The position numbers and the translations under genes were made by a program. The notes beneath the pieces were generated by a model. The model ran no database searches, was not told the DNA's origin, and worked only from the letters and a program-made list of their open reading frames with translations. From Massilibacillus massiliensis (GTDB lineage: Bacteria; Bacillota; Negativicutes; FLKF01), in the NCBI RefSeq assembly GCF_900086705.1, contig NZ_LT575483.1, positions 1,076,735-1,140,734 on the forward strand: a DNA stretch of 64,000 nt, read 5' to 3'. This document shows positions 7,986 to 19,808 of this stretch, one piece after another. How positions within the stretch are numbered: the stretch's first letter is position 1; each line of letters begins with the position of its first letter.

Positions 7986-8023
7986 ACTATACAGACCTAA
8001 TTTGAAGAAACGATGAAGATATT
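7986..8023 (-). promoter_or_regulatory. promoter of the tolC-cusBA operon with 11-bp repeat box
   Basis: The -10 TATAGT (minus; 7986-7991) is separated by exactly 10 bp from two tandem 11-bp repeats, read on the plus strand as TTGAAGAAACG and ATGAAGATATT (8002-8023). The same geometry occurs at 8882-8930 and 11993-12041. This is a probable binding site of the OmpR-type regulator at 10187-10882 (inference). Confidence 0.7.
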
Positions 8024-8063
8024 TCGAATAAGTTATGAATTTTATCTAGTTTTCTATCTTCAT

Positions 8064-8107
8064 ACAATAAATAAGGCTCTTCCGATTGGAAGAGCCTTAT
8101 TTATTGT
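8064..8107 (-). terminator. strong terminator after the small secreted protein gene
   Basis: A 20-bp perfect stem (ACAATAAATAAGGCTCTTCC with its complement) closes on the 4-nt loop GATT. The outer A/T arms provide U-tracts in both directions. It isolates the small-protein transcript from the cus operon promoter. Confidence 0.85.
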
Positions 8108-8112
8108 ATCTG

Positions 8113-8289
8113 CTATTGTATTTGATGATGTGCTGCGTGGTCATTTGTACTGCTTTGCGCCTGATCAGTTGATTGTTCCTGTTGTCCTTCAGCAGCAAAT
8201 GCTGTCGTCATTAGAGGTGTAGCGGCAGAGCCTGCTATTATACTTCCCATGATCATAGCAAAAACAATACGTGTTATTTTTTTCCTCAT
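8113..8289 (-). CDS. small secreted His-containing protein of the copper island
   Basis: This 58-aa protein is mostly a signal peptide: positive MRKK start, hydrophobic core, and a cleavage site near AFA-AE. The mature part is ~25 residues, Gln/Ser-rich, ending NDHAAHHQIQ with three His. The start at 8289 gives nine nt between GGAAGG and ATG; the ATG at 8298 would abut the RBS. No family was recognised. Its position between metal-export genes suggests a periplasmic metal-binding peptide (inference). It is probably co-transcribed with the gene at 8419-8688, 130 nt upstream, and ends at a strong terminator. Confidence 0.7.
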   Translation of the reverse strand: MRKKITRIVFAMIMGSIIAGSAATPLMTTAFAAEGQQEQSTDQAQSSTNDHAAHHQIQ

Positions 8290-8418
8290 GCGATTCATCC
8301 TTCCATCGTCTATTTTCTACTTATATATCTGAACAGCCCGTTTTACTTTTTTTACTTCATTTAGGTTCGCTTCTTTATACCTCTTCACCACGTATAATTA
8401 GTAAAACTTTGACTGATG

Positions 8419-8688
8419 TTATTTGGTTTCATATTCGCTTGTCGACTCTTTCTTCTTATGTAGCATCCCTTTCATCATCAATATATGCAATAACGGACAG
8501 AGTAAAAATACTAAATAATTGGCGGCCCCGGTATAACCACTTATATTGAAAAGCAACAGTATACCAATTGGCGCTAAACAGCAAGCGAGCATCATGAGCA
8601 AGTGTTTCAATCCCCTGCCGTTCTCTTGCTGCTGTGTCGCATGATTTTCCTTCTGATTATGTTGTGGCGTTTTCTTACAACATTCCAT
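8419..8688 (-). CDS. small Cys/His membrane protein (DUF2933-like)
   Basis: This 89-aa protein has a polar N-terminus with a Cys pair (MECCKK) and His residues, then two hydrophobic segments (about residues 28-50 and 56-74) with CC, LLCPLLHILMM and Met residues. Short proteins of this type (DUF2933-like) often neighbour copper-resistance genes; that assignment is from memory of the family. The start at 8688 is chosen because AAGGAGG lies eight nt upstream; a longer reading from 8706 would contain the RBS. It has its own repeat-box promoter at 8882-8930. Its role, perhaps metal binding or buffering at the membrane, is inferred. Confidence 0.72.
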   Translation of the reverse strand: MECCKKTPQHNQKENHATQQQENGRGLKHLLMMLACCLAPIGILLLFNISGYTGAANYLVFLLCPLLHILMMKGMLHKKKESTSEYETK

Positions 8689-8881
8689 TCTTTTTTCCTC
8701 CTTCATTACGATTGGACATCATACAGTGCGCCGCAAAATTCGTCATTCCAGCGTCAATTGTAAAATTTTCAAAGAAATGACACCCCCGCATAGAATTCTG
8801 TATTTTATCCTGATGCCGCTGTCGTCTTATCATCTTTTATGCTACTAGGCTCCTCTGTAACAGGAAACTTTATTTGTATTT

Positions 8882-8930
8882 ATCATACCAAGCTGTTGTG
8901 AAGATATGATGAAAATCCGTTGAAGAACTC
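8882..8930 (-). promoter_or_regulatory. promoter of the 8419/8113 genes with three 11-bp repeats
   Basis: The minus-strand -10 TATGAT (8882-8887) is followed, after 10 bp, by three plus-strand repeats in strict 11-bp register: GTGAAGATATG, ATGAAAATCCG and TTGAAGAACTC (8898-8930). Outside this site and the TCS terminator, 8689-9048 holds nothing else I recognise. The predicted 5' UTR is ~190 nt. Confidence 0.7.
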
Positions 8931-8970
8931 ATGCGTTTTTTATCATAGACCACCGCTTCATTCTACTCAT

Positions 8971-9027
8971 AAAAAAACAGCGAATAAACTGCAGTCATTT
9001 TACAATTCCTGCTCATTTTATTCGCTG
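8971..9027 (-). terminator. terminator of the first two-component operon
   Basis: The stem CAGCGAATAAA/TTTATTCGCTG (8978-9027) is followed on the minus strand by seven Ts (8971-8977). It lies 21 nt after the histidine kinase stop. Confidence 0.88.
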
Positions 9028-9048
9028 CTTTCATTTAAATTAACGCTA

Positions 9049-10194
9049 TTACTTTACCGTCTTTTCAATGGGTAATAGCACTTGAAAAATACTTCCGGCG
9101 TCAACGTTGCTGTCAACCGTGACTTTTCCTCCGTGATTTTCCACTAATTGTTTGACAATCGCCAATCCAATTCCCGATCCACCGCTTTTGCGATCACGGG
9201 ATTTATCCCCTCGATAGAAATGATCAAAAACATACGGCAAATCTTCGTGAGAAATTCCTTGCCCGTTATCTTGAATAGAGATTTTTAGCCACGATTGGCC
9301 GTTCTCCATTAAAACTGCCGTAGATACTAAAATGCGCCCTTGAATCGGAGAATAACGAATTGCATTGACTAAAATATTATAAAAAACCTGATTCATCCGA
9401 TCTGCATCGACTGATATCTCTGGCAAATCGTCCATTAGATCACATTCTATGGGAATCTGCTTCTCATCTGAGAGAGGTTTAAGCATTATAATCGTCCGTG
9501 CGATCAACTGATTCATATCTGTTGGAACTTTCTCCAAAGCCAACTGTCGAACCTCCGCCAAAGATAAATCTCGCAAATCTTTGATTAAACGATTTAAACG
9601 TACCGCCTCTTCATGAAGCGAACTTAATTGTTCTTTACTGGTTTCAATGACACCATCCATCATTCCTTCTAAGTTTCCCTGGATGACAGCCAATGGGGTT
9701 CTGAGTTCGTGGGCAATATTTGCCAAGAGCTGCCGTCTAAGTTTCGTATTTGTCTCTAAAGTTTGTGACATCCGATTAAATATAACGACTAAATTGCCTA
9801 CTTCATCATTGGTTTCCGTTATGACAGTTTGCCCCAAGTTGCCTTTTTCAAGTTCTTCTGCGGCATGACCTAATTTACGAAGTGGAATTGTAATACTGCG
9901 TGCAAGAGCATAACTGGCTGCTAAGCCGATTGCCATAATGCCAATGCCTACCCAAATTAAAGATTGATGCACAGAAGCGAGAAACGTTTCCTCTAAAGGC
10001 CCCATGACAACTGTCATTTCCGATGAATTTGCAGCTTGCCCCATAATTCCGTGGTTCATTCCCATATGTTGTACAACTAAATATTCCTGAAACAAACCAG
10101 ACATTTGTTCATTTGCTAAATAAATCAGCAAAAAAACAGTAATCGCAATAGATAAAAACATTAACCCAGTAATACGATAAACAATACTATTCAT
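9049..10194 (-). CDS. sensor histidine kinase of the metal island
   Basis: This 381-aa membrane kinase probably senses periplasmic Cu/Ag. Domain order: TM1 (~8-28), a short periplasmic sensor (~30-78) with MGMNHGIMGQ (Met/His-rich, a plausible Cu(I) site), TM2 (~82-102), HAMP, HisKA with phospho-acceptor His162 in IAHELRTPLAV, and HATPase_c with DNGQGIS and GGSGIGLAIV. The start ATG at 10194 overlaps the response-regulator stop by 8 nt, indicating translational coupling. A longer reading from 10227 would run into the regulator gene. The family is CusS/BaeS-like. The metal ligand is inferred from the Met/His motif and the neighbours. Confidence 0.92.
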   Translation of the reverse strand: MNSIVYRITGLMFLSIAITVFLLIYLANEQMSGLFQEYLVVQHMGMNHGIMGQAANSSEMTVVMGPLEETFLASVHQSLIWVGIGIMAIGLAASYALARSITIPLRKLGHAAEELEKGNLGQTVITETNDEVGNLVVIFNRMSQTLETNTKLRRQLLANIAHELRTPLAVIQGNLEGMMDGVIETSKEQLSSLHEEAVRLNRLIKDLRDLSLAEVRQLALEKVPTDMNQLIARTIIMLKPLSDEKQIPIECDLMDDLPEISVDADRMNQVFYNILVNAIRYSPIQGRILVSTAVLMENGQSWLKISIQDNGQGISHEDLPYVFDHFYRGDKSRDRKSGGSGIGLAIVKQLVENHGGKVTVDSNVDAGSIFQVLLPIEKTVK

Positions 10195-10882
10195 TTTTAT
10201 CACCAACAAATTTATAACCGATCCCATATACCGTGATGATATATTGCGGTTCTTTTGGATTTAACTCCAATTTACGACGTAAGTTTTTTATATGCGCGTC
10301 AATCGTTCTTTCATATCCTTCAAAAGTATACCCTTGCGTTTGTTCGACGATTTGCAAACGGCTAAATACCTTTCCTGCATTACCTGCCAGTAGTTCCAAA
10401 AGTTTAAATTCTGTAGGAGTTAATTCCAGGATCTGCTCTTTGCGTGTTACTTGATAACGTTCTAAATCTATCGTAAGATCGCCAGATTTTATCATGCTGA
10501 CTTGGGTCAAATTTTTATAAGTTCGGCGCAAAATTACTTTTGCTCTCGCAACGACTTCCTTGGGGCTGAAAGGTTTGCTGACATAATCATCCGCACCGAT
10601 TTCAAGGCCAATCAATCGATCACTTTCTTCATCTCTCGCTGTCAGCATAATAATCGGAATATCATTATCACGTCGAATTCGCCGACATACTTCCCAGCCA
10701 TCAAGTCCTGGCAGCATTAAATCAAGAATCATAATATCTGGTTTTCTTTGCTTGACTTCCTGCATTGCAGCTAAACCATCGTTGGCTGTATAGGTAATAA
10801 ATCCATCTTTTTCAAAATAGGTTTTCAGCAGCTGCACTAATTTTATATCATCATCAACAATTAATACCGAATATTGTGCCAT
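10187..10882 (-). CDS. OmpR/PhoB-family response regulator of the metal island
   Basis: This 231-aa DNA-binding regulator is the partner of the overlapping kinase. The receiver domain has the acidic pocket DDD (10-12), phospho-acceptor Asp54 in MILDLMLPG and Lys in VSKPF. The C-terminal winged helix ends IITVYGIGYKF. The start ATG at 10882 follows AAAGG by nine nt; the ATG at 10891 is too close to it. OmpR-type dimers usually bind tandem repeats spaced 10-11 bp. Three promoters in this island (7986, 8882, 11993) carry such repeats at identical distance from the -10, making this protein the obvious candidate binder (inference). Confidence 0.94.
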   Translation of the reverse strand: MAQYSVLIVDDDIKLVQLLKTYFEKDGFITYTANDGLAAMQEVKQRKPDIMILDLMLPGLDGWEVCRRIRRDNDIPIIMLTARDEESDRLIGLEIGADDYVSKPFSPKEVVARAKVILRRTYKNLTQVSMIKSGDLTIDLERYQVTRKEQILELTPTEFKLLELLAGNAGKVFSRLQIVEQTQGYTFEGYERTIDAHIKNLRRKLELNPKEPQYIITVYGIGYKFVGDKNE

Positions 10883-10932
10883 CAATATCATCCTTTCACA
10901 GATCGTGCTATTTTATAGTTCTTGCTTCAGCA

Positions 10933-10962
10933 ATTTTATCCTTCTACCAATAAGATTTTCAA
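10933..10962 (-). promoter_or_regulatory. probable promoter of the first two-component operon
   Basis: On the minus strand, -35 TTGAAA (10957-10962) is separated by 18 bp from -10 TAAAAT (10933-10938), about 50 bp before the regulator start. No 11-bp repeat box is evident here. Confidence 0.5.
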
Positions 10963-10987
10963 ATTTTTATTGCTTATACTAAGCAAT

Positions 10988-11019
10988 AAAGCGACCCTTT
11001 CTTTTGAAAGTGTCGCTTT
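10988..11019 (-). terminator. terminator after the 11039 membrane protein gene
   Basis: The stem AAAGCGAC-N-CTTTC pairs with GAAAG-N-GTCGCTTT around an AAAA loop, 20 nt after the stop. The following T-tract is weak. Confidence 0.7.
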
Positions 11020-11038
11020 AAATAAAATTTTACGAAAA

Positions 11039-11545
11039 TTACATCTTATGCTGCATATGTTGCATTTGTTGTCCGGTTTCAGTTGGATTCCATCCCATAA
11101 TCGTTGGGTCGACCATACCAAAAACCATAGCGATGTGCGTCACAACAAGAAATACAGCTAAAATAATGAAATGAAGTTTCATTTTTTCACTTTCTGATTT
11201 ATTTTTGAAAATCAGGCCAAGGTCGATTAAGGCAATCGTGAACAATGGAATTACACCACTGAGATACGCACCTACTGCAAGTATATCCGCCGGTCCACGC
11301 CATACAATATTAGGAACAACCGTAGTCGTAAGATTGATAAAAATGCCTAAAAAATAGAAACCTAAAACAATACCCAAGAATCTATTCCAAGTTTTCCATG
11401 CTCCTGGATTAGAGTTACGCGAAAATATTGTAAAAAGCTCGGTGATCGTAAGAGCTTCTGCTAATGCTACCGGAATTACCATATACATAATAAGATTCCA
11501 TGGCTGATTGGTCGCCAATAATTCCATATAATGTGTCATAACCAT
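11039..11545 (-). CDS. four-to-five-TM membrane protein with Met/His tail
   Basis: This 168-aa integral membrane protein has hydrophobic stretches at about residues 18-38, 58-80, 90-112 and 122-146. The C-terminus is polar and Met/His-rich (QQMQHMQHKM). I recognise it only as an uncharacterised permease-like family found next to metal-efflux genes in Negativicutes and cannot give a secure domain name. AGGAGGAG precedes the ATG by nine nt. It follows the small Met-rich protein gene at 11657 with a strong hairpin between them. The tail resembles copper-binding Met motifs, so a role in copper handling at the membrane is plausible (inference). Confidence 0.7.
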   Translation of the reverse strand: MVMTHYMELLATNQPWNLIMYMVIPVALAEALTITELFTIFSRNSNPGAWKTWNRFLGIVLGFYFLGIFINLTTTVVPNIVWRGPADILAVGAYLSGVIPLFTIALIDLGLIFKNKSESEKMKLHFIILAVFLVVTHIAMVFGMVDPTIMGWNPTETGQQMQHMQHKM

Positions 11546-11568
11546 ATTCTAAATCTCCTCCTATATCA

Positions 11569-11602
11569 GCCTCAATACAAATTTTTCAACTTGTATTGAG
11601 GC
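11569..11602 (-). terminator. hairpin between the 11657 and 11039 genes, lacking a U-tract
   Basis: A perfect 12-bp stem GCCTCAATACAA/TTGTATTGAGGC has a 10-nt loop. No T-run follows on the minus strand; instead the RBS of the next gene begins 8 nt later. It could be an RNA-processing or stability element or a weak terminator that sets the ratio of the two products. Confidence 0.55.
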
Positions 11603-11656
11603 TGCACAATGCTTCGATCCTAAACTAACTAAAAATTTTTGTGATTCTCATTTTCC

Positions 11657-11932
11657 CTAACGTGCATTCTTTTCAGATTGCATCATATCAATCATGATTC
11701 GCTTCATTTCCGGATCATTTGCCATCATGTCTTTCATCATTGTTCTCATATTGTTTTGCATTTCCGGACTCGCCATCATTTCCCCACAGTTCGTTTGCTC
11801 CTGCTGCGTCATCTGTGTCTGTTTTGCTGGTGTAGTTTCAGCTTCCGCTGCACTACTAACTCCATACGATATTCCTAATACAGACGCTGTGATCAAGCCG
11901 CCAACGATCCATGCTGTAAATTTATTTTTCAT
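11657..11932 (-). CDS. small secreted Met-rich protein
   Basis: This 91-aa exported protein has a signal peptide (residues 1-28, ending VSSAAEA). The mature part contains about a dozen Met residues spaced like a copper-binding chaperone (GEMMASPEMQ, MRTMMKDMM, EMKRIMIDMM) and a single Cys (TNCGEMM). The composition recalls periplasmic copper-binding peptides, but no named family was recognised. AAGGAG lies 11 nt before the ATG. It is driven by the third repeat-box promoter (11993-12041), so it probably belongs to the same regulon as the cus exporter. Confidence 0.75.
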   Translation of the reverse strand: MKNKFTAWIVGGLITASVLGISYGVSSAAEAETTPAKQTQMTQQEQTNCGEMMASPEMQNNMRTMMKDMMANDPEMKRIMIDMMQSEKNAR

Positions 11933-11992
11933 AAACGCTCACGCTCCTTTTATTTCAGCTAAGATTTTATTTTCATCACTTAACTTGTTTTT

Positions 11993-12041
11993 ATCTTACC
12001 AATAAAATGTGAAGAACCTGTGAAGAACTTGTGAAGAAACT
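11993..12041 (-). promoter_or_regulatory. promoter of the Met-rich protein gene with three perfect 11-bp repeats
   Basis: The minus-strand -10 TAAGAT (11993-11998), after 10 bp, is followed by plus-strand GTGAAGAACCT, GTGAAGAACTT and GTGAAGAAACT (12009-12041), all in 11-bp register. This is the cleanest copy of the island's box. Confidence 0.75.
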
Positions 12042-17625: not shown

Positions 17626-17696
17626 TTAGAAGAAGATTAAAATTGAATTAAAAATGCTGCTAGATAGAGAAAAAATAAATTTAGATATAGTACAAT
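17626..17696 (+). promoter_or_regulatory. promoter of the second two-component operon with TTARAA box
   Basis: TTAGAA-N5-TTAAAA-N5-TTAAAA (17626-17653) has 11-bp periodicity, typical of OmpR/PhoB-family sites. The -10 TACAAT (17691-17696) has no good -35, as expected for an activated promoter. Autoregulation is inferred. Confidence 0.6.
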
Positions 17697-17728
17697 ACAT
17701 ATATAAACAATTTTTTAGGAGGTCCCGC

Positions 17729-18409
17729 ATGAAAACAGAGACTATCCTTATCGTTGAAGATGAGTGGAAAATTGCCCGCTTCATGCAAATGGAACTGGCT
17801 CATGAAGGTTACCACACTGAGATTGAAACAAATGGCCGCCGTGCATTAGATCGCATTATACAAGAAAATTTCAGTCTGATACTTTTAGATATTATGCTGC
17901 CAGAAATGGATGGCGTAGAAATTTGCCGGCGTGTACGGCTGGTTTCTGACATTCCAATTATTATGGTCACCGCGAAAGACGATATCCAAGATAAAGTCCA
18001 TGGACTCGACACTGGTGCTGATGACTATTTAACCAAACCCTTTGCTATTCAGGAATTGCTTGCCCGCACGAGGGCTGCCCTGCGCAAACATACGAAATCT
18101 CAACAAAAAGTAGATGAACTTCGTTTAAAAAACATTGTATTGTTTCCCAGCCGTTATGAAATACAAGTCGACAAACAAACTGTAGAATTAACAAAAAAAG
18201 AATATGATCTCTTGGAATATCTTATCCGCAACAAACATGTCGTATTGGATCGTGAACAAATTCTCCAGAAAGTCTGGGGATATGATTATACCGGTGACAC
18301 CAACGTTGTCGATGTCTATGTACGCTATCTGCGCAGCAAGCTAGACGAGCGCTTCCAAGAAAAGTACATTCACACAATTCGGGGAGTCGGCTATGTTGTT
18401 AAAGAATAA
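17729..18409 (+). CDS. OmpR/PhoB-family response regulator (second system)
   Basis: This 226-aa regulator has receiver-domain residues E10/D11, phospho-acceptor Asp54 in LILLDIMLPEMDG, a Thr in MVTAKDD and Lys in LTKPF. The C-terminal winged helix ends IHTIRGVGYVV. The start at 17729 is set by AGGAGG eight nt upstream; an upstream ATG at 17654 lies in promoter sequence and has no RBS. The kinase gene overlaps its 3' end by 17 nt. It resembles ArlR/YkoG-type regulators. The TTARAA repeats upstream of it and at 16586 suggest autoregulation plus a neighbouring target. Confidence 0.94.
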   Translation: MKTETILIVEDEWKIARFMQMELAHEGYHTEIETNGRRALDRIIQENFSLILLDIMLPEMDGVEICRRVRLVSDIPIIMVTAKDDIQDKVHGLDTGADDYLTKPFAIQELLARTRAALRKHTKSQQKVDELRLKNIVLFPSRYEIQVDKQTVELTKKEYDLLEYLIRNKHVVLDREQILQKVWGYDYTGDTNVVDVYVRYLRSKLDERFQEKYIHTIRGVGYVVKE

Positions 18410-19808
18410 ACAATTATCCATATCGATAAAATTAACACTTTTATACGCCGCAATGTTGTTTTTCATTTTATTATTGACCAATGTACTGACTGTGGTTGGT
18501 CTATACCATGTCTTATATACCCAAGCAAGCACTGATATCGCCAGCAGTGCAAAACAGCTGCAACAACACTTAGATGAAGGCAATCCCGTGGATCAAACCC
18601 TTTTAGCTGAAAACCTACTCGTGCCAAATGTAATTTTAAAAATACTCGATGAACAACAGCATTTAGTCGTAGACAGTGCCCCCGATCTTTCCAGCAGTAC
18701 CGAACCTCTTGGAAAAGAAGTCACCGCACAGGATCTGCTCGAATTTTTCTTAACACAAAGTACCAATCTCCGTCTTGTCTATATTGGGAATACTTATTAT
18801 TATGATGCTGCTTATACCATTCAGCAAAATGACCATGTCTATCAACTTCATCTGCTAACGGCCTTGACTGAACAAACGCATTTTTTGAAAACCTTAACCA
18901 AAATTCTTAGCGCGACCAATCTAATCGGCTTGCTGATTGCGATCCTTTCCGGCACTTTCATCAGCCGCAAAATTCTGCATCCCTTGCGCAATATCACTGC
19001 CACCGCCCAAGAAATTCAGGTAGACGACTTGGGAAAACGCATTCCTGTTAGTCATAGCGGTGACGAATTCGATGAACTGGCAAAAACTTTCAATCATATG
19101 CTTACTCGCCTTCAAACAGGTTTTAAGCAACAGCAACGTTTTGTCGCCGATGCCTCACATGAACTCAGAACACCGATTACTGTCATCAGCGGCTATGTCA
19201 ATATGCTGGATCGCTGGGGCAAACAAGAGCCGCAGGTCTTAGAAGAAGGATTGGATGCAATCAAGTCGGAAGCCGCCAATATGAACAATCTGATTGAAAA
19301 ACTTTTGTATCTTGCCAGAGCCGATCAAGGCAAGCAACACCTCCAAAAAACTGAATTAGAATTTGCTCCTTTTCTTGAAAACATTTTTCAAGAAACCCGC
19401 ATGATCGCTTCCCAGCACCGCGTTATCCTCGCTGCCAATGCACCCGTCATCATCACGGCTGATGAATCTTCAATCAAACAAATGCTTCGCATTTTCATTG
19501 AAAACAGCATCAAATATACACCGCCCGGAGGTACCATCACCCTTGCTTCACAGCAAAATGGACAATTTCTCGAAATTACCATTGCCGACACAGGTATTGG
19601 TATCCCTTATGAAGACCAACCTAAAATTTTTGATCGCTTTTACCGAGTCGATAAATCTCGTTCCAAAACTACAGGCGGCAACGGATTAGGCTTATCCATC
19701 GCCCGTTGGATCGCCGACCAGCACGACTGCCATATTATCGTAACCAGTACGCCAAACAAAGGTACAAGCATTACGCTGCAACTTTGCAGACAAATTATAA
19801 ATAACTAA
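18393..19808 (+). CDS. sensor histidine kinase (ArlS/YkoH-like)
   Basis: This 471-aa membrane kinase is the partner of the overlapping regulator. Layout: TM1 (~13-37), extracytoplasmic sensor (~38-168), TM2 (~172-192), HAMP, HisKA with His256 in ADASHELRTPITV, HATPase_c with N box ENSIKYTPP, DTGIGIP and GGNGLGLSIA. The start ATG lies inside the last codons of the regulator (17-nt overlap), so the pair is translationally coupled. The stimulus is unknown. Neighbouring CorC and TVP38 genes suggest envelope or divalent-cation stress (inference). Confidence 0.93.
   Translation: MLLKNKQLSISIKLTLLYAAMLFFILLLTNVLTVVGLYHVLYTQASTDIASSAKQLQQHLDEGNPVDQTLLAENLLVPNVILKILDEQQHLVVDSAPDLSSSTEPLGKEVTAQDLLEFFLTQSTNLRLVYIGNTYYYDAAYTIQQNDHVYQLHLLTALTEQTHFLKTLTKILSATNLIGLLIAILSGTFISRKILHPLRNITATAQEIQVDDLGKRIPVSHSGDEFDELAKTFNHMLTRLQTGFKQQQRFVADASHELRTPITVISGYVNMLDRWGKQEPQVLEEGLDAIKSEAANMNNLIEKLLYLARADQGKQHLQKTELEFAPFLENIFQETRMIASQHRVILAANAPVIITADESSIKQMLRIFIENSIKYTPPGGTITLASQQNGQFLEITIADTGIGIPYEDQPKIFDRFYRVDKSRSKTTGGNGLGLSIARWIADQHDCHIIVTSTPNKGTSITLQLCRQIINN

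Follow-up and report, generated by a model that had tools for sequence, protein, structure and literature searches.

The window analysed here, a 64,000-nucleotide stretch of the Massilibacillus massiliensis genome, holds genes for an RND metal exporter, several small Met/His-rich proteins, and a two-component system (Table 1), which raises the question of whether these genes are controlled together and, if so, by which regulator and in response to what signal. The first-pass annotation proposed a copper-island regulon, marked by tandem 11-bp repeats at three minus-strand promoters and governed by the OmpR/PhoB-family regulator of the same cluster. All three promoters (P1, P2, and P3) were found where it had placed them, in the minus-strand orientation. 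They share the layout (TCTTCA-N5)x2-3, N11, and a -10 hexamer, so that TCTTCA recurs every 11 bp; no -35 element is present, and the repeats fill its position. P3 reads TCTTCACAAGT TCTTCACAGGT TCTTCA-N11-TAAGAT, with all three TCTTCA units perfect, and P2 reads TCTTCAACGGA TTTTCATCATA TCTTCA-N11-TATGAT, with three units and one mismatch. In P1, (TATTCGAAATA) TCTTCATCGTT TCTTCA-N11-TATAGT, two perfect units are joined by a degenerate third, so the claim of two to three tandem repeats holds with three units in P2 and P3 and with two good units and a poor one in P1. The 10-bp gap said to separate the repeats from the -10 hexamer is indeed the same at all three promoters. The proposed plus-strand consensus RTGAAGAW was too narrow: it fits five of the eight clear units, whereas two begin with T and one is ATGAAAAT.

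Table 1. Features of the cluster, in positions of the window. Bit scores of the boxes are from a held-out matrix, trained without the Massilibacillus genome; E values are genome-wide.
Feature	Start	End	Strand	Remarks
NlpC/P60 peptidase	1426	1989	-	possible last gene of the P1 operon
Heavy-metal RND pump, CusA/CzcA family	2118	5312	-	TIGR00914, 1144 bits (cut-off 701)
Periplasmic adaptor (CusB/CzcB-like)	5324	6604	-	
Outer-membrane efflux protein (CusC/TolC-like)	6617	7921	-	first gene behind P1
Box P1	7985	8030	-	-10 TATAGT at 7986-7991; 5' of the OMP-MFP-RND genes; 39.9 bits, E 3.8e-5
61-aa secreted-looking protein, His tail	8113	8298	-	second gene behind P2
95-aa Cys/Met/His protein with DUF2933	8419	8706	-	behind P2
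Box P2	8881	8926	-	-10 TATGAT at 8882-8887; 5' of the genes for the DUF2933 protein and the 61-aa His-tailed protein; 42.3 bits, E 2.9e-4
Sensor histidine kinase	9049	10197	-	short Met/His-containing periplasmic loop
BaeR-like OmpR-family response regulator	10187	10882	-	recognition helix RTIDAHIKNLRRKLE
Tandem hairpins, DUF6803-regulator intergenic	10960	11045	-	-23.2 kcal/mol, z -5.1; terminator-like
DUF6803 membrane protein	11039	11545	-	second gene behind P3; immediately follows a box in 16 other genomes
91-aa Met-rich secreted-looking protein	11657	11932	-	first gene behind P3
Box P3	11992	12037	-	-10 TAAGAT at 11993-11998; 5' of the genes for the 91-aa Met-rich protein and DUF6803, beyond which follow those of the regulator and kinase; 53.4 bits, E 1.7e-10
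P1B-ATPase	12187	14634		two HMA domains

AT-rich DNA can yield short repeats by chance, and the boxes might be such a chance pattern, or that of a mobile element, with no regulatory role. The scores of the three sites (40 to 53 bits) are well above the chance level. With the same matrix, no site of at least 14 bits other than P1, P2, and P3 was found in the window, and 8 Mb of third-order random sequence gave a best score of 11.4 and none of at least 14 bits; a perfect repeat pair appeared in none of 40 Markov shuffles of the window. The matrix scan also bore out the remark that the box is absent directly before the P1B-ATPase gene and before the regulator gene.

Furthermore, the pattern is widely shared. 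The comparison set comprised 300 genomes of the class Negativicutes, in which Massilibacillus stands alone in its family and order, and 57 of them carry an orthologue of the regulator. In 40 loci (778 kb) around such orthologues, from species several of which share genera, two TCTTCA hexamers are spaced by 11 bp in 55 cases and by 22 bp in 27, and no other spacing between 6 and 30 bp occurs more than once. The overlapping hexamer CTTCAT gives the same spacing peak, as expected, and shuffled-letter control hexamers in the same 40 loci showed no comparable peak at 11 or 22 bp. TANNNT stands 11 nt downstream of a near-perfect TCTTCA pair in 74 of 131 cases, a sharp peak; a second peak at 22 is the product of nested three-unit boxes. 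In the 300 genomes, the exact two-unit pattern with its -10 hexamer matches 127 times, and 4 times when reversed. The cross-genome consensus is TTCTTCA-N4-TTCTTCATAAG-TTCTTCAYAAT-...-TTGnTATAAT, and 78 of the 162 strong sites have the extended -10 TG. The phased repeats of OmpR/PhoB type described in the annotation thus recur in relatives with a sharp 11-bp phase and a fixed gap, and their conservation at orthologous genes, on which the annotation had staked its proposal, favours it. Since phase, spacing, and box are kept over tens of genera, the chance and mobile-repeat readings, to which we assign next to no probability, were rejected.

No comparable box was found at the loci of more distant regulators in other phyla. 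At one Firmicute locus (L039, position 7628), three TCTTAACA repeats in 11-bp phase with the same -10 spacing resemble a Pho box. Within the class, three Pectinatus-like loci (L016, L144, and L145) keep the regulator and kinase with a weak or absent box nearby; it is possible that the regulon was lost or has drifted in this lineage.

The whole-genome and class-wide scan that had been proposed was carried out, and it revealed boxes in many relatives. A sequence-only profile derived from 69 sites, all of other genomes, picked out exactly five significant sites (E of at most 0.0014) in the 4.0-Mb genome, the next best match having an E value of 0.12. In order of rank these are P3, C6:1369247 (9.6e-6), P1, P2, and C6:3522985 (0.0014). 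The two sites unlinked to the cluster lie before the gene of a protein with an HMA domain, a DsbD-type membrane domain, and a cupredoxin domain, and before lgt. The lgt gene of Sporomusa malonica also has a box upstream, which independently confirms the lgt site. A further match with one mismatch, C6:320003, failed matrix scoring and was rejected. The regulon is therefore not the local copper island first described, because two of its five sites are elsewhere and relatives carry up to at least 19.

Which regulator, then, would bind the boxes? A strong box (profile E up to 1e-4) is present in 51 of the 57 genomes with the regulator and in 7 of the 243 in which no match reached the cut-off used (odds ratio 287, Fisher p=6e-43). 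This p-value overstates the case, given that relatedness makes the genomes non-independent and that some of them supplied training sites for the profile. The untrained exact pattern agrees in direction (36/57 against 16/243 genomes, p 1.3e-19). Six regulator-bearing genomes yielded no strong box. In many relatives, the regulator gene itself has a box 41-145 bp upstream of it; in the closest relatives the box is one or two genes further upstream, as with P3 here, where the regulator gene follows 1.1 kb downstream on the same strand with two genes between.

The boxes might instead serve another OmpR-family regulator, such as that at 17654-18409 or G000:C6:882762, the neighbouring regulator being incidental. 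The genome encodes nine regulators of this family, and the seven boxed genomes in which no close orthologue passed the first cut-off fit such a reading, although one of these has a 57% identical regulator just under the cut-off; of the others, five have regulators at best 43-50% identical and one has none. Against it stand the co-occurrence, the many genomes in which a box immediately precedes the regulator gene, and the recognition helix. In the 10187-10882 regulator, 14 of 15 helix residues are identical to those of Escherichia coli BaeR (4b09), whereas the seven other readable OmpR-family regulators match at 5-10 of 15 (the count for the L261 regulator was made by eye, and the unreadable L260 regulator was excluded), so that a BaeR-type helix occurs in this regulator only among those readable. 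We consider another binder very improbable, and the boxes are very probably the binding sites of the regulator at 10187-10882. The annotation's choice of this regulator, which adjoins the boxes and co-occurs with them, is supported, but the protein is specifically BaeR-like rather than Cus/Cop-like.

The adjacency of box and regulator gene in many relatives suggests that autoregulation is likely the rule there. In Massilibacillus, the regulator gene is preceded by a weak sigma-70-like site and by the terminator-like tandem hairpins, which may limit read-through from P3; with no box at the gene and hairpins before it, autoregulation would need read-through from P3. A hairpin lies at the same place in a relative (L127), and thus an attenuator or a terminator is possible. 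On the minus strand, strong hairpins (10960-11045 and 11545-11657) thus stand on both sides of the DUF6803 gene.

The genes behind the boxes were assigned from automatically called gene starts, with transcription from the box presumed by proximity. By number of genomes, the CusC-type outer-membrane protein is the most frequent (19), followed by the regulator and DUF6803 (16 each), small Met/His-rich proteins and SHOCT proteins (14 each), and LemA (8); other targets are lgt, RseC, multicopper oxidase, TVP38/VTT, and SLH-domain and TPM-domain proteins. In relatives, proteins resembling the 61-aa His-tailed protein, as judged by eye, have a box to themselves. The same holds for Met-rich repeat proteins (MNMGMNGMNQG type) at the loci L134, L135, and L229. 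An NlpC/P60 homologue also lies near the RND gene in S. malonica. In the RND pump, Met560, Met610, and Met660 align with periplasmic Met residues of CusA, which we take to be the known Met triad.

The P1B-ATPase had been treated as part of the copper island. Its best scores are of the Zn/Cd/Pb type: two Zn/Cd models gave 712 and 630 bits (equivalog and exception models, below their cut-offs), and TIGR01512 gave 555 bits (cut-off 313.5) against 404 bits (cut-off 397) for the Cu model TIGR01511. The ATPase is of ZntA/CadA type, lacks the box, and is probably outside the regulon. On the plus strand (17654-19808), there is a second pair of OmpR-family regulator and kinase; the regulator's recognition helix differs, and the pair has no box.

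As for the signal, the Met/His sensor kinase that the annotation had noted beside the regulator is present. It has no large periplasmic sensor domain, and a Met and a His (SVH motif) of its short loop are kept in nearly all orthologues. Because of this loop, the CusA-aligned Met residues of the pump, and the gene content of the targets, which includes multicopper oxidase and the HMA-DsbD-cupredoxin protein, our best guess at the signal is Cu(I)/Ag(I). The proposal of a copper regulon is thus supported as to the regulon, and as to its signal it is a reading of the gene content. The main rival is that general envelope stress, to which BaeSR responds in E. coli, acts through the same regulator and boxes, the metal pump being one output among several. 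The BaeR-like regulator and box would agree with this, and the presence of LemA, lgt, RseC, and NlpC/P60 among the regulon members, with SLH-domain and TPM-domain targets in relatives, means that the signal could exceed metal. However, the kinase keeps its Met/His loop in place of a large sensor domain, the CusC-type exporter is the commonest target, and Met/His-rich proteins and multicopper oxidase recur. We therefore regard the envelope-stress reading as rather unlikely, and prefer the Cu(I)/Ag(I) reading.

On the metal reading, the short periplasmic loop of the kinase would sense excess Cu(I)/Ag(I), or the resulting envelope damage, and the kinase would phosphorylate its BaeR-like partner. 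The regulator would then bind the two to three repeats head-to-tail, in place of a -35 element and 10 bp upstream of the -10 hexamer, and, acting as a class II activator of the PhoB type, recruit RNA polymerase. In the cluster, this would turn on the CusCBA-type exporter, the small Met/His-rich envelope proteins, and DUF6803, and elsewhere lgt and the HMA-DsbD-cupredoxin membrane protein. Taken as a whole, this scheme, drawn from sequence comparison, seems to us quite likely to be right.

A broader proposal, which we favour with less assurance, is that this regulon is class-wide in the Negativicutes, and that in it a BaeR-type activator, now rewired to a short Met/His sensor, links the export of Cu/Ag to lgt-dependent lipoprotein maturation, LemA, RseC, and numerous Met/His-rich envelope proteins. 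If so, DUF6803, DUF2933, and SHOCT proteins are new candidate metal-handling factors of diderm Firmicutes; together with small Met/His-rich proteins and the unlinked lgt, they would be tied to one response. The analysis predicts an operator, a regulator, and a set of targets for a metal/envelope response in these bacteria, and suggests that BaeR-type DNA recognition has persisted in a distant phylum, where it is paired with another sensor. A literature search of limited scope found no earlier description of the regulon.

Three known systems invite comparison. An 11-bp repeat close to the -10 hexamer is the known layout of the Pho box; a literature search for a statement of the Pho-box distance gave nothing direct. 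PhoB occupies direct repeats over the -35 region as a head-to-tail dimer, which in a structural model touches sigma and alpha (PMC3348028, PMC4415409). The boxes described here share with class II promoters of PhoB the direct repeats over the -35 region and a regulator of the OmpR/PhoB family, and have the phased repeats at a fixed -10 distance that mark such promoters (11-bp phase, N11 to TANNNT); they differ in repeat sequence, regulator subfamily, and gene content. This PhoB-like geometry suggests that the regulator may be a class II activator. With CusRS, CopRS, and CzcRS, the cluster shares a kinase-regulator pair over a CusA/CzcA-family RND pump, its metal-responsive function being putative here. 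In contrast to those systems, the regulator is below the cut-off of the heavy-metal response regulator family TIGR01387 (167 bits, cut-off 279.2), and the kinase is below that of the heavy-metal sensor family TIGR01386.

BaeSR of enterobacteria controls RND pumps, in which it resembles the present cluster. E. coli BaeR is also the best solved-structure match of the regulator, and the BaeR equivalog NF007982 is its best-scoring family, although at 250.7 bits it is well under the cut-off of 380, as is the kinase under that of BaeS (NF012163, 229.9 bits, cut-off 500). The repeat consensus over relatives, TCTTCAYAA, fits the BaeR consensus TCTNCANAA, as quoted in PMC3799227. Upstream of E. coli mdtA and spy, the best matrix matches coincide with the promoter, and TACACT stands at the spacing seen here; because their scores are low (-8.1 and 0.6), a shared layout is only suggestive. 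Unlike in BaeSR, the kinase has a short Met/His-containing loop, the target genes encode a CusCBA-type pump, multicopper oxidase, and Met/His-rich proteins, and the boxes are near-perfect tandems of two to three units. Thus, the regulator is one that probably works like BaeR, with a nearly identical recognition helix, and that the family cut-offs leave unclassified as BaeR.
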